DNA from: Lysobacterales bacterium
GTDB taxonomy: Bacteria; Pseudomonadota; Gammaproteobacteria; Xanthomonadales; Xanthomonadaceae
NCBI GenBank assembly: GCA_019510195.1
Contig: JAEKKW010000065.1
Location: forward strand, 1-33,080
Length of the DNA stretch: 33,080 nucleotides
Reading direction: 5' to 3'
The notes beneath the pieces are model-generated. The model was not told the origin of the DNA and did not search any database. It was given only the letters and a program-made list of their open reading frames with translations. Both the position numbers and the translations under genes were made by a program. Of the stretch, positions 2,683-29,920 are shown piece by piece. Each line of letters opens with the position of its first letter. Within the stretch, counting starts at the first letter, position 1.

Positions 2683-3366
2683 TCAGTGACCGAACAACAG
2701 GTCGGCGATGATGCCGCTGGTGATCGCGACCAGCAGGTAGTGGCCGAAGTCGTCGCGACGCCAGCCATAGCCGCGCGGCGGGTCGTACAGGCCGTAATCG
2801 CCGTAATCGTCGACGCTGTAGGTCGGGGCGTAATCGTCGCCGTAATAGACGTTGCCGACGGTCCATACCGGTTGCGGGCGATAGCCATACCCGATGCTGT
2901 AGTAGCCACGACCGCGGCTCGGGGAGTAGGTGCGCGGCGGCGGGGCGTAGCGGTAGTCGCGATCACGGTCATGGTCGCGATAGCCGTAATTGCCGCCACG
3001 CCCGTAATAGTTGTTGACCTGTTGCGGCGGCGGCATCTGCGGACGCGAGCCATAGCCACCACGCTGCCAACCACCACGATCGCCCCAGCGGCGGTCATTG
3101 TTGCCGTTGTCTCGATTCGTCCAGCCAGGATTGCCATTGCCGGGATTGCCGTGAGCGCGATTGCCCCAGCCCGGGTTGCCGTTGCTGGCGCTATTGCCGT
3201 TGCTGCGATCAACGCGGCCGTGTTGTTGTCCGCCGTTGTTGCCATTGCCCGGCTGTTGCTGCTGGCCGCGGTCGCGTCCGTGGTTTTGCCAATCCTGGGC
3301 GGATGCGGCAAACGGGATCGCCGACAGGGCCAGGAACAGAGCCGCACCTTTCATCGTGGTTTTCAT
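2683..3366 (-). CDS. RcnB-family periplasmic protein (copy 2, low-complexity)
   Basis: This 227-residue protein starts with a signal peptide (MKTTMKGAALFLALSAIPFA, cleavage after ASA). A long disordered region follows, rich in Asn, Gly, Gln, Arg and Asp. It includes repeated NGNPGW units around residues 58-85 and a DHDRDRDYR stretch. The C-terminal block GYGWRRDDFGHYLLVAITSG then IIADLLF matches the tail of the neighbouring copy 1 and defines the RcnB family. A strong ribosome-binding site, GGGAGGT, precedes the ATG at 3366. The two genes lie in tandem with 129 bp between them and could be co-transcribed. Function is unknown. The disordered, charge-rich middle suggests an envelope-stress or metal-related role, which is speculation. 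Confidence 0.78.
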   Translation of the reverse strand: MKTTMKGAALFLALSAIPFAASAQDWQNHGRDRGQQQQPGNGNNGGQQHGRVDRSNGNSASNGNPGWGNRAHGNPGNGNPGWTNRDNGNNDRRWGDRGGWQRGGYGSRPQMPPPQQVNNYYGRGGNYGYRDHDRDRDYRYAPPPRTYSPSRGRGYYSIGYGYRPQPVWTVGNVYYGDDYAPTYSVDDYGDYGLYDPPRGYGWRRDDFGHYLLVAITSGIIADLLFGH

Positions 3367-3470
3367 GACGACCTCCCGGCCGCGCGTGTTGTGACGGCGC
3401 CAATATGCGCGTTTGCGGCTGAAGCGAAAGTGCTATCCCGCAAAGCATTTAGCTGCCGGAAAGTCCCGCA

Positions 3471-3499
3471 TTCAGGTTGCGGATGGGCACCGGTATAAT
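3471..3499 (+). promoter_or_regulatory. sigma-70 type promoter of ettA
   Basis: A perfect TATAAT lies at 3494-3499, with a 17-nt spacer to a weak -35 (TTCAGG, 3471-3476). Transcription would start near 3506, giving a leader of about 45 nt before ettA. It is the only consensus -10 found in this GC-rich window. Confidence 0.7.
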
Positions 3500-3550
3500 T
3501 GGCGACACCTTCCACAGAACCTGGGTGCCCTAGCGGGTGCCGGAGCGAGC

Positions 3551-5212
<1,662 letters not shown>

Positions 5213-5214
5213 CC

Positions 5215-5242
5215 GGAACGCCCGCGGCAACGTGGGCGTTTC
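5215..5242 (+). terminator. hairpin terminator after ettA
   Basis: A 12-bp stem (5215-5226 with 5231-5242, including two G-U pairs) closes a GCAA tetraloop 2 nt after the ettA stop codon. Only a short TTTCC follows, so termination may be partial, with read-through into pyrF, whose start is 24 bp downstream. Confidence 0.6.
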
Positions 5243-5266
5243 CACATGCGACCGAAGGAGATCGAG

Positions 5267-5899
5267 ATGGGCTTCACCGACACATTGCGCGCACGCTGGA
5301 CCGCCGCCAACTCGCTACTCTGCGTCGGCCTGGACCCCGACCCGGCGAAATTCCCCGATGCCTACGCCGACGACGACGATGCGCTGTTCGCGTTCTGCCG
5401 CGACATCGTCGATGCCACCGCCGAATACGCCTGCGCCTTCAAGCCGCAGATCGCCTACTTCGCCGCGCACAACGGTGGCGAGGCCGCGCTGCAACGGCTG
5501 ATCGCCCACATCAATGCCGAACACCCCGACGTGCCGGTGATCCTCGATGCCAAGCGTGGCGACATCGGCAGCACCGCCGAGCAGTACGCGGTCGAAGCCT
5601 TCGATCGCTTCGGCGCCGACGCGGTGACGCTCAATCCCTACATGGGCCGCGATTCCGCGCAACCGTTCCTGCAGCGCGGCGATCGCGGCTGCGTCTTCCT
5701 CTGCCATACATCGAATCCGGGCGCGCGTGATTTCCAGGAACTCACCGTGCCTGATGGAAGCGGCGGCGGCGAACCGCTCTACCAGCGCATCGCCCGCACG
5801 ATAGCCGGCGAATGGAACGGCGCGAACAATTGCGCACTGGTGGTCGGCGCGACTTTCCCGGAGGAGGAGTTGCGCGACACCATCAACCGCCATCGCTGA
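5267..5899 (+). CDS. pyrF: orotidine 5'-phosphate decarboxylase, apparently internally deleted
   Basis: PyrF converts OMP to UMP, the last step of de novo pyrimidine synthesis. This is the type-2 (about 265-280 residue) form. The N-terminal LLCVGLDPDP, the FKPQIAYFAAH strand and the catalytic ILDAKRGDIGSTA motif (K96, D99) are intact, as is LNPYMGRDS. The protein has only 210 residues. The family block beginning LVVGATFPEE is followed at once by LRDTINRHR, which resembles the normal C-terminal end. About 55 residues that should carry the phosphate-binding PGIGAQGGD loop and the last barrel strands are missing. The junction lies at a GAGGAGGAG run (5861-5869). Start at 5267 is chosen for its AAGGAG ribosome-binding site. 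The enzyme is probably inactive unless the gap is an assembly error. Confidence 0.85.
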   Translation: MGFTDTLRARWTAANSLLCVGLDPDPAKFPDAYADDDDALFAFCRDIVDATAEYACAFKPQIAYFAAHNGGEAALQRLIAHINAEHPDVPVILDAKRGDIGSTAEQYAVEAFDRFGADAVTLNPYMGRDSAQPFLQRGDRGCVFLCHTSNPGARDFQELTVPDGSGGGEPLYQRIARTIAGEWNGANNCALVVGATFPEEELRDTINRHR

Positions 5900-5907
5900 A
5901 ACCCTCG

Positions 5908-6744
5908 TTATCGGCGCGCGAACGCCCGCGACACTGCGAACGGAAACCGCGCCCAGATCATCGCGAAGACCGCGAGCCGCGCCAGCGGGCCGTGCTGGGC
6001 GGCATCGAATTTGCGGAAGTAGCGCCACAGACCGCGATGCTTGTGCCATTCGACGAAGACCGGGCGCGAGCGCGAGGACACTCCGCGCACATGGGTCACG
6101 ACGACGCTGTTGTCGATCGCGACGATGGCGCCCGCTTCGCGCACGCGTCGGCACAGGTCGAGATCCTCGGCATGCAGGCGATAGCTTGAATCGAAGCCAG
6201 CGATGCGTTCGAACAATGCACGCGGCACCAGCATCAAGGCACCGGACACCGCGGCGACGCGTTGCAGCGATTCGCCGTTCGATGGCACGGATAGATCGCG
6301 CATCGCGGGATTGCGCAACATCGCCACGAAATCGGGATCGCGACGACGCGCGGCGGGATCGTGGTCGCCGGCTTCATCGACCAGGTCGGCGCCAACCAGT
6401 GCTTCGCCGAGCAGCCTTGCATCGTCGCGCAAACGCGCCAGGGCATCCGCCGTCACCATCAGGTCGGGATTGACGAAGGCCAGCCATGGCGCATCGCTGT
6501 CATCCGCTCCCTGGTTGCAGCCGGCGGCGAACCCCTGGTTGTCGGGATTGGCGACGAAACGGATGCGCGGATCGACGGCCGCGTGCCGTTGCACGCACTC
6601 CATCGTGCCGTCGTCAGACGCATTGTCGATGACGCGGATCTGCACCACGTCATGCGCCGCGCGCAGATGGCGCAGGCAGGCGTCGATGGTGGACGCACTG
6701 CGATGGCTGACCACGATCGCGGCGATGCCTTCTCCCGCGCTCAT
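5908..6744 (-). CDS. glycosyltransferase family 2 (rhamnosyltransferase-like)
   Basis: This 278-residue GT-A fold enzyme transfers a sugar from a nucleotide donor, probably onto a surface glycan. The N-terminal strand IAAIVVSHRS, VIDNASDDGT (about 39-47), NPDNQGFAAGCNQG (67-79) and the metal-binding LAFVNPDL (NPD 92-94) are all present. The catalytic acid motif ED sits at residues 193-194 in YRLHAEDLDLC, and a conserved VTHVRGVSS follows. This layout is typical of WbbL/RfbN-like rhamnosyl- and related transferases; donor and acceptor are not deducible. The ATG overlaps the stop of the upstream glycosyltransferase (ATGA), so translation is coupled. Its 3' end lies 8 bp from the damaged pyrF, which it faces. 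Confidence 0.85.
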   Translation of the reverse strand: MSAGEGIAAIVVSHRSASTIDACLRHLRAAHDVVQIRVIDNASDDGTMECVQRHAAVDPRIRFVANPDNQGFAAGCNQGADDSDAPWLAFVNPDLMVTADALARLRDDARLLGEALVGADLVDEAGDHDPAARRRDPDFVAMLRNPAMRDLSVPSNGESLQRVAAVSGALMLVPRALFERIAGFDSSYRLHAEDLDLCRRVREAGAIVAIDNSVVVTHVRGVSSRSRPVFVEWHKHRGLWRYFRKFDAAQHGPLARLAVFAMIWARFPFAVSRAFARR

Positions 6745-7574
6745 TCGAACAACTCCGTCTGAGGCGGCAGCGGCTCGGCCACGGCGACGCGTTGCACCAG
6801 CTGTTCGCGCCATTCGTGCAGCGGATCGTTCATCAACATCGCCGCCATCCGCGAATACCAGTCGGGCCAGCGCACCGCCAGAGCGTCCTGGTCGCCATCC
6901 TGCAATTCGCCTTCGGCCAAACGACCCACAAACGCGGTTTCGCACAACACGTTGCGCCAGCCGAATCCGGCGAGTCGCAGCGACAGATCGGCCAGCGCCG
7001 CCGACCACGAGCCATAACTCGCATGATCGATGCCACCGGCCTTGCGCAGCGCGCGACCGCGCAACAGCACGGCATGCCCCACTGCTGCTGGCAATTCCGG
7101 ATGCACCGGCGGCATTCCGCGCAAGGCATTCGCCAAGCGCAGCGGCTCGTCGGGCAAGGGGTTGAGATCGCCAAGTCGCGGCCACGACGCCAATTCACCG
7201 AGATTGCTCCACGGTGTCGCGGTGCCGATCGCGCCGTCACGCGCAAAGCAGGCCTGCAACTGGTTGAGCCAGCCCGGCACCGGCACGGCATCACTGGCGA
7301 GCACCACGACATCGGCATCCCCGCAGATGTCGAGCGCTTCGGCCACATGCGCGCTTTCGCCAATGGCGCGAGCGCGACGCGTGTAATCGGGCTCCAGCTT
7401 CGTCTGCGCGATCCAGTGTTCGATCACGCGCGCACTGCGCGGGCCGGCCTGGGCATCATCGATCAGCCACACGCGCGCACCCGCCGGCGTCGAGGCATCG
7501 AGTGCGGCGAGACAGGCATCCAGCGCCACATCATCCGGGCCAACCGGCAACAGGATGATGGGCAGATCCGGCAT
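6741..7574 (-). CDS. glycosyltransferase family 2-like protein, divergent
   Basis: This 277-residue protein has the GT2 architecture: an N-terminal strand, VWLIDDA (35-41), the nucleotide/metal-site region DADVVVLASDAVPVPGWL (86-103) and a PWSNLGE loop (121-127) seen in many GT2 proteins. The segment that should hold the catalytic acid pair (usually EE/ED-[VN]DLCLR) reads YGSWSAALADLSLRLAGFGW (188-206), and the usual following His motif is absent. It may therefore be a non-catalytic partner or a divergent enzyme. Its ATG overlaps the purL stop by one base (TGATG), and its own stop overlaps the next glycosyltransferase. All three genes should be expressed from the purL promoter. Confidence 0.72.
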   Translation of the reverse strand: MPDLPIILLPVGPDDVALDACLAALDASTPAGARVWLIDDAQAGPRSARVIEHWIAQTKLEPDYTRRARAIGESAHVAEALDICGDADVVVLASDAVPVPGWLNQLQACFARDGAIGTATPWSNLGELASWPRLGDLNPLPDEPLRLANALRGMPPVHPELPAAVGHAVLLRGRALRKAGGIDHASYGSWSAALADLSLRLAGFGWRNVLCETAFVGRLAEGELQDGDQDALAVRWPDWYSRMAAMLMNDPLHEWREQLVQRVAVAEPLPPQTELFE

Positions 7575-10500
7575 CAACCAACCCAGGCCCGCGCGTTGCG
7601 GAACATCCGCGCCCACGGCGAGGTCTCGCCCCAGCTGTCGGGATGCCAGCTGAAGTTGGCGGTGATGCGCGTGCGTTCCGGATGCGGCATCAGGAGGGTG
7701 ACGCGGCCGTCATCGCTGCAAACGCCGGCCATGCCGTCGCGCGATCCGTTGGGATTGGTCGGGAAGCTCGTGGCGACGCGACCTTCGCCATCGACATAGC
7801 GCGCCACGACCGCGATTTTCGCCTGATCGCCGGCACTCGCGAATTGCATGCGACCTTCGCCATGCGCGACCACCACCGGAATGCGCGAACCGGCCATGCC
7901 ACGCAGCAGGATCGACGGCGACTCCGGCAGTTCCACCTGCGACAGGCGCGCTTCGTATTGCTCGCTGGCGTTGCGTTGCAGGTCGGGGAAATGCGCGGCG
8001 CCGGGAATGATGTCGCGCAACTGCGCCAGCATCTGGCAGCCGTTGCAGACGCCCAGCGTGAAGGTGTCGGAACGCGCGAAGAACCGCGCGAACATCGCGC
8101 GCAAGACCGGACGTTCGAGGATCGAGGTTGCCCAGCCGCGGCCGGCACCGAGCACGTCGCCGTAGCTGAAGCCGCCGCAGGCGGCGAGGCCGACGAAATC
8201 GTCGAGCGTGGCGCGGGCTGCGATCAGGTCGCTCATGTTCACGTCCACCGCATCGAATCCGGCAGCCATGAAGGCCGAGGCCATCTCGACCTGGCCGTTG
8301 ACGCCCTGCTCGCGCAGGATCGCCACGCGCGGACGCTTGCCTGGCGCGGTGAACGCTGCCGCGATGTCGTCCTCGGGATCGAAGGCCAGCTTGGGCACCA
8401 GACCCGGCGCATCGAAACGGCGCACGAGCTCGCGTTCCTGGTCGGCCGATTCCGGGTTGTCGCGCATGCGCTGCATCGCGTGCGTGACCGCCCACCAGGC
8501 GTCGAACAGTTCGTGCCAATGCCACTCGGCGACGGTCTTGCCGCCCGCCAGCACGCGGATGTCGTCAGCGGTGGTTGGCCTGGCGATGCGTTGCGCGCAT
8601 TCGATCAGGCCGTGACGCGCGACCATGTCGGCGAATTCGGCGCGATCCTCGCTGCGGATCTGCACCACCGCGCCGAGCTCCTCGTTGAACAGCACTTCCA
8701 GCGGATCATCGTCGTGGGCGGTGGCCCAGCCGTCGAGCACGATGTCGAGGCCGCGATGCGATGCGAAGGCCATTTCGCACAGGGCCGCAAAGGCGCCACC
8801 GTCGGAACGGTCGTGGTAGGCCAGCAGCAGGCCGGCTTCGCGCGCGTCACGCATCAATTCGAAGAAGCCACGCAGCAATTCGGGATCGTCGAGATCGGGC
8901 ACGTCGCCGCCGAAGCCATCGAAGCATTGCGCCAGGATCGAGCCGCCAAGACGACGCTGGCCGGCACCGAGGCCGATCAGCCACAGTTCGCTGTCGTCTT
9001 CGCGCGAGAGCAAAGGCGTCAGCTGCCTGCGCACGTCGTGCACCGGCGCGAACGCAGTGACGATCAGCGATACCGGCGATACCGATTTGTGCGCCTCGCC
9101 GTCGACCTGCCACTGCGCCTGCATCGACAGCGAATCCTTGCCGACCGGGATGCTCAGGCCGAGCGCCGGGCACAGCGCCATGCCCACCGCCTCCACCGCC
9201 GCATACAAACGCGCGTCTTCGCCCGGCGTGCCGGCGGCGGCCATCCAGTTGGCGGAAAGCTTGATGCGTTCGAGCGCGTCGACCGGCGCCGCGCACAGGT
9301 TGGTGATCGCTTCGCCGACCGCCATGCGCGCACTCGCGGCGGCATCCATCAGCGCCAGCGGCGTGCGTTCGCCGATCGCCATCGCTTCGCCGGCGTGGCC
9401 GTCGTAGCCGGCCAGGGTGATCGCGACGTCGGCCACCGGCATCTGCCACGGCCCGACCATCTGGTCGCGCGCGGTGAGGCCGCCGACGCTGCGGTCGCCA
9501 ATGGTGACGAGGAAGGATTTCGAGGCGACGGTCGGATGCGCCAGCACGCGCAAACCGGCCTCGCGCAATGACAGGCCAGCGGTCGCGAGTTCGTTCCAGC
9601 GTGGCGCCTTCGGCGATTCGGCGTCGCGATGCATCTTCGGCGCCTTGCCGAACAGCACGTCCATCGGCAGGTCGATGGGGTTGGCTTCGGTCCGGGGCAA
9701 CGCGATCGATTCCACCGTCGCGCCATGGCCCACCACCAGCCGTTCTTCCGCGGTCGCGTGGCCGACCACCGCGAACGGGCAGCGCTCGCGCGCGCACAGT
9801 GCGGCGAATTCGTCGACGCGATCGGCGGCGATCCCGAGGACGTAGCGTTCCTGCGATTCATTGCACCACAGCTGCATCGGCGACAGCGTGGGATCATCGC
9901 TGGGCACGCGGTCGAGATCGATCACGCCACCGACGCCGGAATCGTGCAGCAATTCGGGAATCGCGTTCGACAAGCCACCGGCGCCGACGTCGTGGATGCT
10001 GCGGATCGGATTGCGTTCGGCCAGGGCGACGCAGGCGTCGATCACTTCCTGCGCACGGCGTTCCATTTCCGGGTTGTCGCGCTGCACCGAAGCGAAATCG
10101 AGTTCCTCGGAACTCTGGCCCGATGCCAGCGAGCTCGCGGCGCCACCGCCAAGGCCGATCAGCATCGCCGGACCGCCGAGCACGATCACCGCGTCGCCCG
10201 GCTGCAGGCGGCGCTTCTCGACCAGTGCCGGTTCGATCGCGCCGAGACCGCCGGCGAGCATGATCGGCTTGTCGTAGGCGCGCACCAGGCCGTCGGGCTG
10301 TGCGATTTCGAACGTGCGGAAATAACCGGCGAGATTGGGACGGCCGAATTCGTTGTTGAATGCCGCCGCGCCGATCGGGCCTTCCAGCATGATCTGCAAT
10401 GCCGGTGCCATCCGCGGATTGAGCACCCGCGGGTGTTCCCACGGCTGCGGCAATGTCGGGATGCGCAACGCCGACACGCTGAAACCGCAGAGGCCGGCCT

Positions 10501-11479
10501 TGGGCTTGCCGCCACGACCGGTCGCACCCTCGTCGCGGATTTCGCCACCGGAACCGGTGGATGCACCGGCATACGGCGAGATCGCGGTCGGATGGTTGTG
10601 TGTCTCCACCTTGATCGCGAACGCCGACTCCTGCTCCGGCTTGAGCACCCATTCGTGGCTGACGGGATCGGCCTGCAGGCGTCGCGTCGCGTAGCCTTCC
10701 ACGACCGCGGCGTTGTCGCTGTACGCCGACAGCGTGTGCTGCGGCGTGCGCTGGTGGGTGTTCTTGATCATGCGGAACAGCGAACGTTCCTGCGCGTCGC
10801 CGTCCAGCGTCCAGCTGGCGTTGAAGATCTTGTGGCGGCAGTGCTCGGAATTGGCCTGCGCGAACATCATCAGTTCGACGTCGGCGGGATCGCGCTGCAA
10901 TTCGCCATATCTCTGCTGCAGGTATTCGACTTCGTCATCGGCCAGGGCGAGGCCGAGGCGGCGATTGGCGGCATCGAGATCGTCGAGCGGCACGCGCTCC
11001 AGCGCGGCACGCGGATGCGTCTCGAACAGGTGCGCGGCATCGGCGACGTCAGCGAGCAGCGACTGCGTCATCGGATCGTGCAGCACCTTCGACAGCGCGG
11101 CCTGGGTGGCGGCATCGACCGGCCAACCGGAGACATCGAGACGAATGCCGCGCTCGACCCGCAACACCGGCAAGCCGGCGCCCTGGAGCAGTTCGGCGGC
11201 CTTGCTCGCCCACGGCGAAATCGTGCCTAGGCGCGGACTGACGTAGCGCGAGATCGAACCGGGAGCGCGTGGCTGCGAATCCGTACTGGCCTGGAGAATG
11301 CGGCCGAGTTTGGCGATGTCGAGCTTGTCGGAACCCGGCGAAGCATCGTCCTGTGGCTGCACCCAGTAGGTGAACCAGCTTGCGGTGATGCCGAGTTCGG
11401 GGGCGATGGCGCGGAGGCGGGCTTCCAGCCGTTCGCGGCGGAACGGCGACAGGGCCGGCTGGCCCTCGAGCACGATCAT
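7574..11479 (-). CDS. purL: phosphoribosylformylglycinamidine synthase
   Basis: This 1301-residue, single-chain PurL catalyses step 4 of purine synthesis: FGAR + glutamine + ATP gives FGAM. Domains in order are an N-terminal PurS-like region, a linker, two AIRS-type synthetase halves ([22 protein letters not shown] in the first, [11 protein letters not shown] in the second) and a C-terminal class I glutamine amidotransferase. The amidotransferase triad is C1145 (LGVCNGCQM), H1266 and E1268 (MPHPERT), the same spacing as in E. coli PurL. Length matches the large proteobacterial form. A TACAAT box lies about 31 nt upstream of the ATG; no clear ribosome-binding site is seen. It leads an operon with two glycosyltransferases. 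Confidence 0.97.
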
Positions 11480-11509
11480 GTCCAGGAAAACCGTGGCGAA
11501 TGGCCGCCT

Positions 11510-11515
11510 ATTGTA
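11510..11515 (-). promoter_or_regulatory. probable -10 element of purL
   Basis: The minus strand reads TACAAT, about 31 nt upstream of the purL start, preceded by CCGC exactly as at glyA. The -35 region would lie inside the 3' end of the dsbC-like gene and is not convincing. Confidence 0.4.
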
Positions 11516-11527
11516 GCGGAGCGGGCC

Positions 11528-12331
11528 TTACTGCTTGGCCACCGAGTCCAGCCACTGCTTCATCCGCGACGGGTCGAGGTAGCCCGGCGCCGCCACGCCG
11601 TTGGGCGCGACGATCATCGGGGTACCGGTCAGGCCCAGGCGCTGGCCGAGGTCGTACTCCATCGCCACCGGGCTGCTGCAACGGGGCGCACTGATGCGCT
11701 TGCCATTCTTGGCGTCGGTCAGCGCCTTGCCGCGATCGGCCGAACACCACACCGCTTCCATCTGGCTGAAGTCGTCGCTGGCCGGCCCCATGCGCGGATA
11801 AGCGAGATATTCAACGGCGATGCCCTGGGCGTTGTACTGGGCAATCTGGCTGTGCAGCTTCTGGCAGAAGCCGCACTGGATGTCGGTGAACACGCTGACC
11901 GTGTATTTCGGATTGGCCGGCGCGAAGACGATGCGCTGGGATGCCGGGACCTTGGCCAGTTCCTCGCGGCGGAGCGCCGACATCGTGGCCTCGCTCAGAT
12001 CCTTCTTGGCCACGGTGTCATACAGGTTGCCCTGCATGACGTAGCGGCCATCATCGGAAACGTACAGGGTCTGGCCGGCGACGATGAGTTCGCGGAAGCC
12101 CGGCATCGGCGCGGCGGCGACGCGGTCGACCTTCAATTGCGGATTCGCCTTGTGGAGTGCATCGATCGCGCGCGCTTCGGGCGAGCCCGCGACCGGTTTG
12201 GCAGCCGCGGCGGCGATCGGCACCGGCGCGGGTTTCGCGTCGGCCTTGGCGGTTTCCGCAGCCATCGGCTTGGCGCAGGCGGTCAGGCTGGCGATCGCCA
12301 TCGTGGTGGCGAGGAAAAGACGCAAGTTCAT
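11528..12331 (-). CDS. dsbC: DsbC-like thiol:disulfide isomerase, predicted lipoprotein
   Basis: This 267-residue protein belongs to the DsbC/DsbG family, which repairs wrong disulfides in the periplasm. Residues 1-18 form a signal peptide ending in the lipobox LTAC (Cys19), followed by Ala at +2, so outer-membrane anchoring is predicted. An Ala/Pro/Lys-rich linker of about 35 residues precedes the N-terminal dimerisation region (ARAIDALHKANPQLKVDRV) and the thioredoxin domain. The active site is C153-G-F-C156 (TDIQCGFCQKL) and the cis-Pro loop is LTGTPMIV. A second Cys pair (VWCSAD, APRCSSP) matches the structural disulfide of DsbC. The gene follows xerD, the same order as E. coli xerD-dsbC. 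Upstream GTG starts are possible; the ATG at 12331 gives the cleanest signal peptide. Confidence 0.85.
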   Translation of the reverse strand: MNLRLFLATTMAIASLTACAKPMAAETAKADAKPAPVPIAAAAAKPVAGSPEARAIDALHKANPQLKVDRVAAAPMPGFRELIVAGQTLYVSDDGRYVMQGNLYDTVAKKDLSEATMSALRREELAKVPASQRIVFAPANPKYTVSVFTDIQCGFCQKLHSQIAQYNAQGIAVEYLAYPRMGPASDDFSQMEAVWCSADRGKALTDAKNGKRISAPRCSSPVAMEYDLGQRLGLTGTPMIVAPNGVAAPGYLDPSRMKQWLDSVAKQ

Positions 12332-12361
12332 CACGATCCGGGAAATTCTGGTCACCACGGC

Positions 12362-12381
12362 ATTTTCGCATGGATTTTCGC
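12362..12381. repeat. pair of ATTTTCGC direct repeats between xerD and dsbC
   Basis: ATTTTCGC occurs at 12362-12369 and again at 12374-12381, a 12-bp period close to one helical turn, in the 75-bp gap upstream of the dsbC-like gene. It could be a binding site or a chance duplication. Confidence 0.3.
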
Positions 12382-12406
12382 GGGAACGGCCCGGCAAGCT
12401 GAACGC

Positions 12407-13426
12407 CTAGCCCCGCGGATGATGGCGGGCGTGCAGCGACTTCAATTGTTCGCGCGCCACCAGCGTGTAGATCTGGGTGGTCGACAATGCACTGTGGCCG
12501 AGCAGCATCTGCAATGCGCGCAGGTCGGCGCCATGGTTGAGTAGATGGGTCGCGAAGCTGTGGCGCAGCGCATGCGGGCTGACGCGCGCAGGATCGATGC
12601 CGGCCAGCACGGCGTAGCGCTTGACCAGTGTCCAGAATGCCTGGCGGGTCAGCGGCTGGCCCTTCGCCGTGAGGAACAACGTTTCCAGCGATTTGGTCGC
12701 GTCCGTTTTTCTGGATTTCCCCGGCGCCGGCGATGGCGATGACGGCTGGGGATTTTTCCGTTGCGGTGGAATCAGTGTCGAGCGCACGCCCAGGTATTTC
12801 TCCAGCCAGTGCTGGGCTTCCTCTCCCAGCGGCACCAGTCGCTCCTTGCTCCCCTTGCCGCGGACACGCAGCACGCCTTGGCGCAGATTGGGTGCCGTAG
12901 CCGGAAGATCGACCAGTTCACTCACGCGCAAGCCGCAGGCGTACATCAGCTCCAGCATCGCGCGATCCCGCAGGCCTACCGTCGTATCGACGTCAGGCGC
13001 CGCCAGCAGCGCCTCGACCTGCCCTTCCGCCATCGCCTTGGGCAGGCTGCGCGGCATCTTCGGACTGTCGAGCAGCGCCACCGGATCGTCGCTGCGCACG
13101 CCGCGACGGATGCGATCGGCATAGAACATCCGCAGTGCCGACAACAGGCGCGCGGTACTTCGCGGCGAATAGCGCTGCTCGCTGCGCCACGCAAGCAACC
13201 CGTAGAGATCACTGCGACTGGCGTCGACCAGTTGCACGCGCTTGGTCGCGCACCAGCGCGACGCGCCCTCGAGATCGCGCCGATAGCTGTCCAGTGTCGC
13301 GCGCGCCAGGCCGTGTTCGGCCCACGCGGACTCCAGGCAGGATTCGATCGCGGCGATGTCGGCGTCGGCCGCGTCCGGCAGCTGCAGCGAGGCCATGCGG
13401 CGTTCGGCGGGAGTCCGTGCACTCAT
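12407..13426 (-). CDS. xerD: site-specific tyrosine recombinase XerD
   Basis: XerD works with XerC at dif to resolve chromosome dimers at division. The protein has an N-terminal SAM-like core-binding domain (about 25-115) and a C-terminal catalytic domain. All six catalytic residues are visible: R167 (CGLRVSEL), K191 (RGKGSKERLVPL), H285 and R288 (SPHALRHSFATHLLNHGADL), H311 (LLGHS) and Y320 (QIYT). The HHPRG end is the XerD C-terminus. At 339 residues it is longer than E. coli XerD (298). Part of the excess is a Pro/Ser/Lys-rich loop at about 216-245. Another part is the N-terminus, where M11 (13396) is an alternative start; neither start has a good ribosome-binding site. It is followed by the dsbC-like gene. 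Confidence 0.93.
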   Translation of the reverse strand: MSARTPAERRMASLQLPDAADADIAAIESCLESAWAEHGLARATLDSYRRDLEGASRWCATKRVQLVDASRSDLYGLLAWRSEQRYSPRSTARLLSALRMFYADRIRRGVRSDDPVALLDSPKMPRSLPKAMAEGQVEALLAAPDVDTTVGLRDRAMLELMYACGLRVSELVDLPATAPNLRQGVLRVRGKGSKERLVPLGEEAQHWLEKYLGVRSTLIPPQRKNPQPSSPSPAPGKSRKTDATKSLETLFLTAKGQPLTRQAFWTLVKRYAVLAGIDPARVSPHALRHSFATHLLNHGADLRALQMLLGHSALSTTQIYTLVAREQLKSLHARHHPRG

Positions 13427-18123: not shown

Positions 18124-18133
18124 GGCAATGCAG

Positions 18134-20928
<2,795 letters not shown>

Positions 20929-20932
<4 letters not shown>

Positions 20933-21417
20933 TCCCCCAGCAACTCCATCGCCATCACGATCGCGTCTTCGCGCTGGCCGTTCGCGGCCGGGTAATAGCG
21001 TGGGCGCCGCCCGATCTCGTTGAAGCCGATGCCGTGGTACAGCGCGATCGCATGCGTGTTCGACGGCCGCACCTCGAGGAACATCTGGCGCGCACCACGC
21101 GTCCGCGCCAGTTGCAGCAGCGACGTCAGCAACGAACGCCCCACCCCGCGTGATTGCACCGACGGGTCCACGCACAGATTGAGCAGATGGCATTCGTCGG
21201 CGGCATGATTCAGGACGCCATAGCCGAGCACCGCGCCGGCACCATCTTCCAGCATCCACGCCGAGTATCCCGCGCGCAGGCAGTCGCGAAACACCTTGCG
21301 CGACCACGGATGCGGATAGCCGCGCTCTTCCACCACCATCACCGCGTCGAGATCGCTTTCTCGGATCGGGCGCAGGCGGCCGGACGGCATCTGCGGGGGC
21401 GAAGTCACCGCGCTCAC
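20929..21417 (-). CDS. rimI: ribosomal protein S18-alanine N-acetyltransferase
   Basis: This 162-residue GNAT-fold enzyme acetylates the N-terminal Ala of ribosomal protein S18 using acetyl-CoA. The segment [20 protein letters not shown] is the RimI core with the acetyl-CoA loop [26 protein letters not shown] then EIGRRPRYY is the highly conserved C-terminal half of RimI. The GTG at 21417 overlaps the stop of the preceding small gene (GTGA) and is taken as the start; ATG at 21390 is an alternative. E. coli rimI also directly follows holD, which supports the reading of the upstream gene. Confidence 0.92.
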
Positions 21418-21677
21418 GATCGTCGCAATCGCCTCAGCAACGGCCACAGCGCGCGCTTGGCGGCGGCATTGCCGCGCAGTCCCGACAACGGTTCCGCCAG
21501 CGCCAGTACCTTCTGTTCGCGGGCGTCGCCACCCGCCGCCTTCAACAGATGGCGCAATAACGCATCACCTGTTTCCACAGGGGCACGTGGTGCAGCGGCG
21601 ATATCCCCGCCCCCCAGTGCGTAGACCTCGATCCCCAGCTCGGCCAGGGCCTCGCGCTGGAATGCATCCCAATTCAC
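21414..21677 (-). CDS. holD: probable DNA polymerase III psi subunit (HolD-like)
   Basis: An 87-residue protein is encoded between pssA and rimI, with GTGA overlaps at both ends. The N-terminus ([20 protein letters not shown]) resembles the E. coli HolD start, where the segment DWQLQQLGITQWSL contacts chi and the clamp loader. The C-terminus LRGNAAAKRALWPLLRRL resembles HolD LRANPTARAALWQQI. The middle is about 50 residues shorter than in E. coli psi (137). Position directly upstream of rimI is the same as E. coli holD-rimI. Psi bridges chi to the clamp loader at the replication fork. Similarity was judged by eye, so the call is likely rather than certain. Confidence 0.65.
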   Translation of the reverse strand: MNWDAFQREALAELGIEVYALGGGDIAAAPRAPVETGDALLRHLLKAAGGDAREQKVLALAEPLSGLRGNAAAKRALWPLLRRLRRS

Positions 21678-22438
21678 GCAGGCGCACCCTGGCGACGGCG
21701 CACCAGCATCATCGCCGGTCCCGACAACGCATAAAGTCCGAACACGCAAAGCAAGGTGCGCGCGGGCGCCAATGCCAACGCGATCAACGCGATCACGACG
21801 CCGACCAGCATCATGAAAGGCACGCGTTCGGAACGCGGACCCTCGCCGCCGCCCTTGAAACTGGTGTAGCGCACGCGGCTGACCATCAGCAAGGCGACGA
21901 TCACCGTCAATCCGAGGACCGGCAGGCTCAACTCGTCACCCTCGGTCCAGCCCAGGCCATGGAACGTCCACACGAAACTCGCGAGCACCGCCGCCGCCGC
22001 CGGACTGGCGAGGCCGATGAACCAGCGCTTGTCCACCGCCTTCACCTGGCTGTTGAAGCGCGCCAGCCGCAGCGCCGCGCAGGCCGCATAGAGGAAGGCC
22101 GCCAGCCAGCCGAGCTTGCCGGCGGTCGCGCCCTGGTCGCGCAGCGATTCCAGCGCCCAGTGGTAGACCAGCAGCGCCGGCGCCATCCCGAAACTGATGA
22201 GGTCGGACAGCGAGTCGTATTGCACGCCGAATTCGCTCTGGGTGTTGGTCAGGCGCGCGACACGGCCATCGAGACCATCGAGAATGGCGGCGATGAAGAT
22301 GGCGATGCAGGCGTGTTCGACCAGTCCCTGCGACGAGGCGATGATCGAATAGAACCCGGAGAACAACGCTCCGGTGGTAAACAGGTTGGGCAGCAGGTAG
22401 ATGCTGCGGCGCGCGGGCGACGGGGTCGGGGCAGTCAT
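21674..22438 (-). CDS. pssA: CDP-diacylglycerol-serine O-phosphatidyltransferase
   Basis: This 254-residue integral membrane enzyme makes phosphatidylserine, the precursor of phosphatidylethanolamine, from CDP-diacylglycerol and serine. The CDP-alcohol phosphotransferase signature DG(x2)AR(x8)G(x3)D(x3)D is complete in the stretch that starts [17 protein letters not shown] and ends [21 protein letters not shown] precedes it and about six further hydrophobic segments follow. This is the Bacillus-type membrane PssA, not the E. coli phospholipase D-like form. The start at 22438 gives [19 protein letters not shown]. It overlaps the holD-like gene by GTGA and diverges from proS over 92 bp. Confidence 0.93.
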
Positions 22439-25751: not shown

Positions 25752-25828
25752 CCGGATAGGATCGCACGCCGCAACACAACGATCAGCATCGACGCGGTAG
25801 GCTTGCCGGACCGCCAGTTCCCGCATCC

Positions 25829-26941
25829 ATGGCCGATCCCGATTCCACCATCCGCCCCACCCTGCGTCGCGACGGCAACACGCTGCTGTTGTCCGGCGAC
25901 TGGACGCTGCGCAACGTCGACGCGATCACCGCGTTGATGAAAGGACTGGCGCCGGGCCCGCGCGCGATCGATGCCACTGCCATCCGGGTGCTGGACTCGC
26001 TGGGCGCGCTGGCGCTGTTGCACCTGGCGCGCATCGTCAACATCGGCGAAGACGCGATCCACTTCAATGACAACCAGTACGCGCTGATCGAGGCGATCCG
26101 CGAAGTCTCCGACGACCGCCCCGCACCGCCGCGCGACTTCGGCTTTCGCGCCGTGCTCGATCGCATGGGCCGCAGCGTGGTGCGCAACTGGCAGCAGATC
26201 GTCACGCTGGTCGGCTTCCTCGGCGAAACGCTGGCGAAGATGGTGCGCCTGGTCGGCCAGCCGCAGCGGATCCGGCTGACCTCGGTGGTGTTCCAGATGG
26301 AACAGGTCGGGCTCGATGCGGTGCCGTTGATCCTCCTGCTCAATTTCCTGGTCGGCGCCGTGGTCGCCTTCCTCGGCGCCAACGTACTCAAGGATTTCGG
26401 CGCGACCATCTTCGTGGTGGAACTGGTCGATGTCGCCTTCTTGCGCGAATTCGCCGTGCTGCTTACCGCGATCGTGCTCGCCGGCCGCACCGCCAGCGCC
26501 TTCGCCGCCCAGATCGGCGCGATGGTCAGCCGCGAGGAAGTCGACGCGATGCGCACGCTCGGGCTCGACCCGGTCGACGTGCTGGTGATCCCGCGGGTGA
26601 TCGCCCTGCTGGTGATGCTGCCGCTGCTCACCTTCCTGGCGATGCTGGCCGGCCTGTTCGGCGGCATGACCGTCGGCGCCATGAGCCTCGACATCCCGAT
26701 GCAGGCGTGGCTGTCGCGCATGGACAGCACCATCCACGTGCGCCACTTCCTGGTCGGCATCAGCAAGGCGCCGTTCTTCGCCATGGTGATCGCCCTGATC
26801 GGCTGCCTGCAGGGCCTGCAGGTGGAAGGCACCGCGCAATCGGTGGGCGAACGCACCACCGCCAGCGTGGTGCAATCGATTTCGCTGGTGATCGTGCTGG
26901 ATGCGCTCGCCGCGATGTGGTTCATGTACATGGACTTCTGA
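25829..26941 (+). CDS. MCE-type ABC transporter permease with N-terminal STAS domain (MlaE-like)
   Basis: This 370-residue inner-membrane permease belongs to a lipid-transport ABC system. Residues 1-95 form a STAS domain (IDATAIRVLDSLGALALLHL), the role filled in E. coli Mla by the separate protein MlaB. The MlaE domain follows, with SVVFQMEQVGLDAVPLILLL, LVGAVVAFLGANVLKDFGA, FVVELVDVAFLREFAVLLTA and IVLAGRTASAFAAQIGAM, the conserved core, then MRTLGLDPVDVLVIPR. Its stop overlaps the ATPase start (TGATG). It heads a four-gene operon and diverges from the ThrE-type gene over 77 bp; no Shine-Dalgarno is apparent. Confidence 0.9.
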   Translation: MADPDSTIRPTLRRDGNTLLLSGDWTLRNVDAITALMKGLAPGPRAIDATAIRVLDSLGALALLHLARIVNIGEDAIHFNDNQYALIEAIREVSDDRPAPPRDFGFRAVLDRMGRSVVRNWQQIVTLVGFLGETLAKMVRLVGQPQRIRLTSVVFQMEQVGLDAVPLILLLNFLVGAVVAFLGANVLKDFGATIFVVELVDVAFLREFAVLLTAIVLAGRTASAFAAQIGAMVSREEVDAMRTLGLDPVDVLVIPRVIALLVMLPLLTFLAMLAGLFGGMTVGAMSLDIPMQAWLSRMDSTIHVRHFLVGISKAPFFAMVIALIGCLQGLQVEGTAQSVGERTTASVVQSISLVIVLDALAAMWFMYMDF

Positions 26942-27768
26942 TGGAGAAGCACGGCGCCACCACCGGACAAGACGATCCCGGCCTCGCGATCCGCGTGCGC
27001 GGACTGGTCAACCGCTTCGGCGCGCAAGTCGTGCACGATGGCCTCGACCTCGATGTCCGCAAGGGCGAGATCCAGGGCATCGTCGGCGGATCCGGCACCG
27101 GCAAATCGGTGCTGATGCGCACCATCCTCGGCCTCAACCAGCCGGACGACGGCGACGTGCGCGTGCTCGGCCACGATCCCTTCGGCAGCAGCGCCGATCG
27201 CCACGCCATCGAGCGCAATACCGGCGTGCTGTTCCAGGATGGCGCGCTGTTCTCCTCGCTCACCGTCGGCGAGAACGTCGAGGTGCCGCTGAAGGAACAT
27301 CATCCCGACCTCGAGCCGCGCATCCGCGAGGAACTCGCCCTGCTCAAGGTCAAGCTCGCCGGCCTGCCCGCCGATGCCGTCGCCAAGCTGCCATCGCAGT
27401 TGTCGGGCGGCATGCGCAAGCGCGCCGGACTGGCGCGGGCGCTGGCACTGGATCCGCCGATCCTGTTCCTCGACGAACCGACCGCCGGCCTCGACCCCAT
27501 CGGCGCCTCGCAGTTCGATGAACTCATCCTCACCCTCAAGCACGCGCTGGGGCTGACGGTGTTCCTCATCACCCACGATCTCGATACCCTGTATGCCATC
27601 TGCGACCGGGTCGCGGTGCTGGCCGATCGCAAGGTGCTGATCAACGCGCCGTTGTCCGAAGTGGAACGCTTTGACCAGCCATGGGTGCAGGAATACTTTC
27701 ACGGACCCCGCGGGCGGGCGGCGCAAACTATCCACCAGCGCAACCTCATCGACCACACGACCAGCTAG
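26941..27768 (+). CDS. MCE-type ABC transporter ATPase (MlaF-like)
   Basis: This 275-residue ATPase drives the MlaE-like permease. Walker A is GGSGTGKS (49-56), the Q-loop lies in VLFQDGALFSSLTV, the signature is LSGGMRKRAGLARAL, Walker B is ILFLDEPTAGLDP and the H-loop is LITHDLDTLY. The replacement of the usual Q by M-R in SGGMRKR is typical of MlaF-type ATPases. About 10 extra residues precede the nucleotide-binding domain, and the tail RAAQTIHQRNLIDHTTS continues past it. The start ATG shares a base with the permease stop. Confidence 0.92.
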   Translation: MEKHGATTGQDDPGLAIRVRGLVNRFGAQVVHDGLDLDVRKGEIQGIVGGSGTGKSVLMRTILGLNQPDDGDVRVLGHDPFGSSADRHAIERNTGVLFQDGALFSSLTVGENVEVPLKEHHPDLEPRIREELALLKVKLAGLPADAVAKLPSQLSGGMRKRAGLARALALDPPILFLDEPTAGLDPIGASQFDELILTLKHALGLTVFLITHDLDTLYAICDRVAVLADRKVLINAPLSEVERFDQPWVQEYFHGPRGRAAQTIHQRNLIDHTTS

Positions 27769-27771
27769 ACG

Positions 27772-28698
27772 ATGGAAACCAAGGCCAATTACGTTCTGAT
27801 CGGTGCCTTCACGCTGCTCGTCTCGGTGGGATTGCTGCTGTTCGGCCTGTGGGCGGCGAAGTTCGCCTCCGACCGCAACTGGAACCGCTACGAGGTGATC
27901 TTCAGCGAAGCGGTGACCGGCCTGACCGAAGGATCGTCGGTGCAGTACAACGGCATCAGCGTCGGCACGGTCGAACGCCTCAAGCTCGATCCGCGCGATC
28001 CGCGCCGCGTGCGCGCACTGCTCAAGCTCAGTGCCGACGCACCGATCAAGGTCGATACCCGCGCCAAACTGTCGCAACAGGGCATCACCGGCAGCCCCTT
28101 CATCCAGCTCTCGGGCGGATCGCCGCAGTCGGCAGCGCTGCTGCCGAGCGAAAGCAACGAGGTCCCGATCATCCAGACCGAACCATCGACGCTGCAGAAC
28201 ATTTCCGACGTCGCCAGCAAGCTGGTCACGCGCCTCGACGAGATGCTGAGCGAGGACAACATCAAGCGCATCTCGGCGACGCTGGAAAACCTCAAGGCGA
28301 CCACCGACAGCATCGCCTCGCAGCGCGAAGACATCCGCCAGTTGCTGGTCAACGCGCGCCAGGCCAGCGAGGACCTGCGCACCACGCTGAAGAGCGCCAA
28401 TGGCGCGATCGACAGCGTGAACCGCGGCGTGATCGACAAGCTGCCGGCGACGATGGACAAACTCGACAAGACCATCGCATCGCTGCAGGCGGCCGGCCAG
28501 AACGCCAACCTGCTGATCGACGAAAACCGCGCGCCGCTGCGCAGCTTCACCCGCGACGGCCTGCAGCAGCTTGCACCGACGCTGGAAGAACTGCGCGCGC
28601 TGACGCGTGACCTGCGCGGCGTCGCCAACGGCCTCAACCGCAGTCCCGCCGGCTACATCCTGGGTCGCCAGCAGCCGAAGGAGTTCACGCCGAAATGA
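27772..28698 (+). CDS. MCE-domain lipid-binding protein (MlaD-like)
   Basis: This 308-residue protein is anchored by one N-terminal transmembrane helix (about 5-27). An MCE domain at about 35-120 (VIFSEAVTGLTEGSSVQYNG, GTVERL, ALLKLSADAPI, SQQGITGSPFIQLSGG) would form the hexameric periplasmic ring through which phospholipids pass. The remaining 170 residues are mostly helical, with repeated LDEML / TLENLKA / TMDKLDKTI patterns. They suggest a needle-like coiled-coil extension, longer than in E. coli MlaD (183 residues). The stop overlaps the next ATG (ATGA). Confidence 0.9.
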   Translation: METKANYVLIGAFTLLVSVGLLLFGLWAAKFASDRNWNRYEVIFSEAVTGLTEGSSVQYNGISVGTVERLKLDPRDPRRVRALLKLSADAPIKVDTRAKLSQQGITGSPFIQLSGGSPQSAALLPSESNEVPIIQTEPSTLQNISDVASKLVTRLDEMLSEDNIKRISATLENLKATTDSIASQREDIRQLLVNARQASEDLRTTLKSANGAIDSVNRGVIDKLPATMDKLDKTIASLQAAGQNANLLIDENRAPLRSFTRDGLQQLAPTLEELRALTRDLRGVANGLNRSPAGYILGRQQPKEFTPK

Positions 28699-29315
28699 AG
28701 TCCACGCAGATGAAGACCACGCGCACCCTGGCCGTTGTCGCGATGCTGGCCATGCTTGCCGGTTGCAGCATCCTGCCCAAGCGCGAGGATTTCGCGATCC
28801 ATACCGCGGTAACGCATGCCACGCCGGATCCCGCGTGGCCACAGGTGCGCGTGCAACTGGTGATCGCGCGACCGACCGCGGAACGCATGCTGGCTGATCC
28901 ACGCATCGTGGTGCGGCCATCGCCCGATGAACTGCAGGTCTACCACGGCGCGACCTGGGCGGAATCGCCGCCGGAAATGGTGCAGCGCTCGCTGTTGCAG
29001 CTGCTGGAAGACAGCGGTCGGCTCAAGGGCGTGGCGACGCGCGGCGGCGGCCTCAGCGGCGACTACGAGCTGGCGATGGACATCCGTCGCTTCGATTCCG
29101 ATTACGCCGGTGGCGCGACGCCAAACGCGGTGGTGGAGATCGGCGCGCGCCTGGTGTCGAAGGATGGCAGCGTGGTCGCGTTCCGGGTGTTCCGCGCGGA
29201 TGCAGCGGCATCCTCCACCGCTGTTCCGGCCGTCGTCCAGGCGTTCCAGCAGGCGCTGGCGAAGGACAGCCAGGGCATCGCGGGCTGGGCGCTGGGCGCA
29301 ATGGCGCGCCGATAG
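28695..29315 (+). CDS. ABC-type transport auxiliary lipoprotein (PqiC/YmbA-like)
   Basis: This 206-residue lipoprotein has a signal peptide and lipobox LAGC (Cys24), with Ser at +2, which predicts outer-membrane sorting. The mature part matches the ABC_trans_aux/PqiC layout: VQLVIARPTAERMLADPRIV, YHGATWAESPPEMVQRSLLQ then LLEDSG, and a final pair of strands with VVEIGARLVSKDGSVVAFRVF. Such lipoproteins accompany MCE transporters and probably dock the periplasmic ring to the outer membrane. It completes the operon, overlapping the MlaD-like gene by ATGA. Confidence 0.85.
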   Translation: MKSTQMKTTRTLAVVAMLAMLAGCSILPKREDFAIHTAVTHATPDPAWPQVRVQLVIARPTAERMLADPRIVVRPSPDELQVYHGATWAESPPEMVQRSLLQLLEDSGRLKGVATRGGGLSGDYELAMDIRRFDSDYAGGATPNAVVEIGARLVSKDGSVVAFRVFRADAAASSTAVPAVVQAFQQALAKDSQGIAGWALGAMARR

Positions 29316-29318
29316 CAC

Positions 29319-29332
29319 CCGCCGGCTGGCGG
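29319..29332. terminator. weak hairpin between the MCE operon and the AlkB-family gene
   Basis: CCGCC-GGCT-GGCGG is a 5-bp GC stem with a 4-nt loop in the 23-bp gap between the convergent genes. There is no T-run on either side, so it is at best a weak bidirectional terminator. Confidence 0.3.
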
Positions 29333-29338
29333 ATGTCG

Positions 29339-29920
29339 TTATCCTTCGCCCGGCCGCACCACGCGGAACGTGAGATTGATCCGTGGCTGCTTCACCTTCG
29401 CGCTTTTCGGCAGTGCATGCTTCCAATGCTGCTGCGTGCTGCCCGCCATCACCAGCAGGTCGCCGTGCTGCAGTGACCATTCCTGCCGGCGCTGCGGATC
29501 ATCATTCGCGCGCAACACGAAGCGCCGCGTCGCCCCCAGGCTGATCGATGCGATGAACGGATGCGGCCCGAGTTCGCGCTCGTTGTCGCGATGCCAGCCG
29601 ACGTAGTCATTGCCGTCGCGATAGAGATTGGCCAGCGCGCTGTTGAACGGCGCCTCGAGTTCCAGCGCCAGGCGTTCGCGCAATTCCGCCAGGATCGGCG
29701 GCCACGGCAGCGGTTCGAAGCGCCCGCCCGAATAGGCGTAATCGGTGCCGGGATCGCCCAGCCAGCAACTGAGTCGCGGCGAGTCCACCCAACGCCCGAA
29801 CATGCGGATGCGATGCACCGACCATGGCAGCTCGCGCTTCAACACATCGAACAGACGGTCGGCCACCGATGCAGGCAGCCAATCGCGTTCCAGCAGGACA
29901 TCGGGATCGGGCACGGCCAT
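29339..29920 (-). CDS. AlkB-family 2-oxoglutarate/Fe(II) dioxygenase
   Basis: This 193-residue demethylase repairs alkylated bases such as 1-methyladenine and 3-methylcytosine. The iron ligands are H110 and D112 (VGWHRDNE) and H168 (WKHALPK). The 2-oxoglutarate-binding arginines are R180 and R186 in RINLTFR. The sequences NSALANLYRDGNDYVGWHRD, ISLGATRRFVLR and HGDLLVMAG fit the ALKBH2/3-like branch more than E. coli AlkB. ATG at 29920 is taken as the start; an upstream GTG at 29938 is possible. It diverges from the ETF-QO gene over 65 bp. Confidence 0.9.
   Translation of the reverse strand: MAVPDPDVLLERDWLPASVADRLFDVLKRELPWSVHRIRMFGRWVDSPRLSCWLGDPGTDYAYSGGRFEPLPWPPILAELRERLALELEAPFNSALANLYRDGNDYVGWHRDNERELGPHPFIASISLGATRRFVLRANDDPQRRQEWSLQHGDLLVMAGSTQQHWKHALPKSAKVKQPRINLTFRVVRPGEG

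Follow-up and report, generated by a model that had tools for sequence, protein, structure and literature searches.

A probable recent in-frame deletion in the only pyrF gene found in a Solilutibacter-like bacterium

Introduction

Loss-of-function alleles of pyrF lead to uracil auxotrophy, as in laboratory 5-FOA mutants. The pyrF gene of a Solilutibacter-like bacterium (Lysobacterales; assembly GCA_019510195.1) codes for a protein of 210 residues, and the question raised by this locus is whether a part of the gene has been lost from the organism or only from its assembly. The genome consists of 2.19 Mb in 149 contigs and is 90.39% complete and 0.12% contaminated. The stretch of DNA analysed here, called the window, is the whole of contig C130 (JAEKKW010000065.1, 33,080 nucleotides). 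Among the open-access papers listed on the subject, most deal with fungi, archaea, laboratory strains and engineering.

Results

The shortened pyrF gene and its product

The features of the locus are collected in Table 1. The reading frame of 210 residues, its coordinates, the KRGD motif and the GAGGAGGAG run were all found as the initial annotation had described them. A second in-frame ATG at position 5246 gives a reading frame of 217 codons. The product scored 185.7 bits against the NCBIfam profile TIGR02127 (pyrF_sub2, type-2 orotidine-5'-phosphate decarboxylase), which is over the cut-off of 110.6, but the match covers profile positions 1–201 of 261 only. Similarly, the Pfam profile PF00215 is matched only at positions 2–128 of 221. 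The residues D94, K96, R97, G98, and D99 of the DAKRGD block, which we take to be the catalytic residues, are invariant in 35 alignment rows, the window included. The alignment with relatives also showed that the PGxGAQGG loop, presumably the phosphate loop, is absent from the window PyrF.

Table 1. Coordinates of pyrF, its parts and its neighbours in the window.
Feature	Position	Strand	Basis or remark
ABC-F type ATPase, upstream neighbour	3413–5212	+	96.6% identical, same place in L. silvestris
pyrF	5267–5899	+	ATG at 5267, stop codon at 5897–5899, 210 codons/residues
pyrF, retained codons 1–200 with predicted strands 1–6 and the DAKRGD block	5267–5866	+	profile match, alignment, model
GAGGAGGAG run over the junction 5866/5867, where 198 nt are absent in comparison with the relatives measured	5861–5869	+	sequence, alignment
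pyrF, retained last 10 codons (ELRDTINRHR) and stop codon	5867–5899	+	identical to the C-terminus of L006, L007, and L008
Family-2 glycosyltransferase, downstream convergent neighbour	5908–6738	-	conserved position in L. silvestris, whose 277-residue ORF served to estimate the start

The block missing from pyrF

All 16 other genomes of the genus carry pyrF, with 80–94% identity over approximately residues 1–200. The window gene tracks its five closest genus mates at 90–94% identity up to PEE (nt 5866), and the DNA alignment of nine rows (the window and eight relatives) places the junction, PEE/ELRDTINRHR, between nucleotides 5866 and 5867. Three genus mates (L006, L007, and L008) end in the same ten residues as the window PyrF. 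Judged by the sequences, this is an identity that chance does not give, in line with the earlier reading of this end as resembling the native C-terminus of the family. The block missing at the junction amounts to 66 codons, or exactly 198 nt, in all 14 relatives measured, which were taken from 109 PyrF loci (L004–L112). The in-frame internal deletion that had been proposed is thus seen in the alignment, but its size is 66 residues rather than the approximately 55 given initially.

The flanks are collinear with Lysobacter (Solilutibacter) silvestris, where the regions matching window positions 2683–5865 and 5867–12688 lie 199 bases apart. The pyrF gene of L. silvestris AM20-91 (L033) likewise lies between the genes for the ABC-F ATPase and the glycosyltransferase, and its product is 94% identical to the window PyrF over residues 1–200. 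It has 276 residues, however, including the 66-residue block, with predicted strands 7 and 8, that is missing from the window.

Measured from match start to stop, the 80 orthologues have 268–281 residues each, so the 210-residue window PyrF falls short of the full-length domain; the PGxGAQGG motif is present in 79 of them. The initial annotation had given about 265–280 residues for type-2 PyrF, with a PGIGAQGGD phosphate-binding loop in the lost segment. The alignment that had been suggested as a check found the block in every relative measured; none of the 80 orthologues has the 210-residue form. The block also holds an SSR motif, and 22 of its positions are invariant among 34 relatives (34-row alignment).

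A survey of 395 genomes of the family gave matches to the intact protein in 217. Among the matches listed, that of the window is the only one to stop at residue 200, every other match reaches residue 274–276, and no other internal loss of such a kind was found. Nine low-scoring genomes were followed. In three of them, pyrF was full length or nearly so; in four, the match was cut by contig ends, as judged by the locus lengths; one (G088) had pyrF matched in two pieces within a single open frame of 316; and one (G221) gave a weak match of 71 residues. The short pyrF matches in other genomes of the family, considered as similar losses, were thus otherwise explained in the nine followed. In the PyrF of G088 (L132/L137), query residues 180–207 are unmatched between the two pieces.

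Predicted effect on the protein

For the intact relative, the structural model (mean pLDDT 92.2) has barrel strands at residues 18–22, 55–61, 91–94, 119–122, 141–147, 189–193, 213–215, and 240–244. The missing block corresponds to residues 201–266 and holds the last two, the predicted strands 7 and 8. The model of the window PyrF (mean pLDDT 86.8, a confidence driven by the alignment rows of intact relatives) contains only the six barrel strands that precede the block. By prediction, therefore, the window protein lacks the eight-strand barrel, and the loss of the last barrel strands together with the phosphate loop, as claimed in the initial annotation, is borne out by the position of strands 7 and 8 and of PGxGAQGG in the block. 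A structure search with the remnant model alone still returned OMP decarboxylases first, with Leishmania enzymes at ranks 1 and 2 (rank 1: TM 0.75 by query length, rmsd 6.7 Å).

Since strands 7 and 8 and the 22 invariant positions of the block are lost along with the loop, we expect from the models that the 210-residue PyrF would be inactive. Such a product would be unable to close the eight-strand barrel or to hold the phosphate of OMP. With an inactive PyrF, de novo UMP synthesis would be halted at OMP.

Search for a second pyrF and for the pathway genes

No second pyrF was found in the 2.19-Mb, 149-contig, 90%-complete genome, whether it was searched with the protein of the intact relative, with PF00215 or with the relative's 198-nt block; this genome-wide search had also been suggested as a check. 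The protein search returned only the window pyrF and one weak match, and PF00215 returned the window pyrF and one match below the cut-off. The weak matches on C56 and C99 were rejected as a second pyrF, as their ORFs read as a response regulator and a ribulose-phosphate epimerase, and the PF00215 match below the cut-off lies in the ORF that reads as the epimerase; both names are our own readings of the sequence. With 40 of the 104 candidates scored, the best match to the 198-nt block elsewhere in the genome was 29 bases at 90%, and any one match covered at most 52 of the 198 positions. Across the genus, just a single place over the PF00215 cut-off was found in 17 of 17 genomes (16 genus mates and the genome of the window). 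As this genome is fragmented and 90.39% complete, another pyrF could sit in the missing part.

The genes pyrB, pyrD, and pyrE are present over their cut-offs, as is upp, which codes for uracil phosphoribosyltransferase. A TGA reported inside pyrD proved to be the normal stop codon, and pyrD, read from end to end, is normal.

Origin of the junction

The left end of the block in the 14 relatives measured is PEE followed by a Leu codon. At the right end, 11 of the 14 have Arg, GAR, and a Leu codon; in the other three (L010, L035, and L037), Glu is replaced by another residue. The 11 relatives have a Glu-Leu codon pair (GAR and a Leu codon) at each end of the block. A swap at these shared codons predicts the junction PE-ELRD with two Glu codons, whereas the window has PEE-ELRD with three. 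The recombination at the GAGGAGGAG run that had been proposed is thus not borne out as it was put: a simple repeat-mediated deletion, which leaves one GAG of the window unaccounted for, is rejected as the sole cause unless the ancestor differed by a codon. With that same proviso, the extra GAG implies that the join was blunt or came with a gained triplet.

In L. silvestris, no direct repeat of at least 10 nt pairs both breakpoints at the spacing of 198 nt. The repeat search over positions 3560–3850 of this relative gave three weak direct-repeat pairs with spacings of 42, 83, and 238, none of 198. Since no such repeat pairs the breakpoints, a repeat collapse is unlikely. The most likely origin of the junction is an illegitimate replication or repair join.

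Selection on the retained codons

The dN/dS values of the retained pyrF codons are 0.06–0.12 between the window and five genus mates, against 0.04–0.15 among the mates. The mean dN of the retained pyrF to 12 outgroups is 0.137 for the window and 0.136–0.147 for the five genus mates. At the level of the codons compared, the retained pyrF shows no sign of relaxed selection or of a long time without selection, from which it follows that the break, if real, would be young. On these sequences, the lack of decay fits a young deletion and an assembly error equally.

The rest of the window

The window was compared with L. silvestris over 24 non-overlapping ORF pairs, picked by score, between positions 680 and 31614. 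Among them, pyrF is the only well-conserved ORF that is missing a block, and neighbouring genes, including the upstream ABC-F ATPase, which is presumably EttA-like, showed no frameshift or comparable loss. Two of the ORFs picked, 25783–28920 and 28653–29480 on the minus strand, overlap + strand ORFs that run end to end, and these two minus-strand ORFs are probably shadows.

Two other gaps of about 260–300 bases relative to L. silvestris, near 18124 and 20930, are both intergenic; as pyrF alone among the well-conserved ORFs of 680–31614 is missing a block, a pattern of pyrF-like losses along the contig was rejected. At window positions 18124–18134 (compared with L125/L126, G007), L. silvestris has approximately 260 more bases between two genes, which apparently contain a small membrane-protein gene absent from the window. 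At 20928–20937, the window has about 9 intergenic bases and L. silvestris approximately 300 more, downstream of a gene that we take to be valyl-tRNA synthetase-like. The tyrosine recombinase at 12407–13426 (minus strand), presumably of the XerC/XerD type, has a loop near 12688–12791 with 22 residues more than its counterparts in L. silvestris and G002; it lies between the GKGxKERLVPL and ALRHSFATHLL stretches and leaves the frame intact. The ORF 2683–3366 (minus strand) shares 55% identity with the corresponding ORF of L. silvestris, in an alignment with 41 gapped columns, against mostly 80–97% in the rest of the window, and the small ORF 21414–21749 has 10 gapped columns.

Discussion

We conclude that the window probably records a recent in-frame loss-of-function deletion of 198 nt in pyrF, a gene of which no second copy was found in the genome of this Solilutibacter-like bacterium. 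A single replication or repair error may have joined sites 198 nt apart, either bluntly or with the addition of one GAG, in the sampled strain or in a part of its population.

The main alternative, clearly the less probable but one to be taken seriously, is an assembly error, in which pyrF is intact in the organism itself and the assembler misjoined the flanks because of a chimeric read, a wrongly closed gap or the choice of a minor variant path over the main one. A genome of 149 contigs at 90.39% completeness leaves room for it; the absence of relaxed selection in the retained pyrF and the presence of all the pathway genes searched are what an error would be expected to give, and among the matches listed in 217 of 395 genomes the window alone stops at residue 200. 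On the other hand, no direct repeat of at least 10 nt pairs the breakpoints in L. silvestris, and a search of the genome for the lost block gave nothing better than 29 bases at 90%, with 40 of the 104 candidates scored. In addition, the adjoining genes have no frameshift or comparable loss relative to L. silvestris, and the join preserves the reading frame, as one error in three would. Deletion or assembly collapse had both been considered in the initial annotation; the lack of a pairing repeat and the intact look of the other genes in the window somewhat favour deletion.

It is very unlikely that the six-strand remnant is a working enzyme that decarboxylates OMP, perhaps as an oligomer completing the barrel between subunits. 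The kept reading frame and DAKRGD block, the low dN/dS of the retained part, the confident model (mean pLDDT 86.8, driven by the rows of intact relatives) and the best solved match of the remnant model, still an OMP decarboxylase, would all suit such an enzyme, but two predicted strands, the phosphate loop and 22 positions invariant in 34 rows are gone, and no such form occurs in 80 orthologues. We give an equally low probability to a 210-residue form that is real, fixed in the species and under selection, with the barrel completed between subunits or with a binding or regulatory role. Least probable of all is a second OMP decarboxylase, encoded in the tenth of the genome that is missing from the assembly, that would have let the window copy break: a completeness of 90.39% leaves space for it, but 17 of 17 genomes of the genus, that of the window included, have only a single place over the Pfam cut-off.

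If the deletion is real, de novo UMP synthesis would stop at OMP, and the cell would subsist on imported uracil or uridine, which Upp would convert; the organism is thus a presumed uracil auxotroph. The likeness to the laboratory 5-FOA alleles of pyrF lies in the break of the last step of de novo UMP synthesis; unlike them, the break in the window is seen in a draft genome assembly. Such breakage of a gene is ordinary, or possibly an assembly error, and does not amount to a new system. If it is an assembly error, it serves as a warning that a gene with a neat in-frame loss in a draft assembly may exceed the curated cut-off of its family and be named a working pyrF. If it is real, this strain or population of Lysobacteraceae would be a recent pyrimidine auxotroph relying on outside uracil, with the loss of pyrF caught before the other genes of the pathway had decayed.
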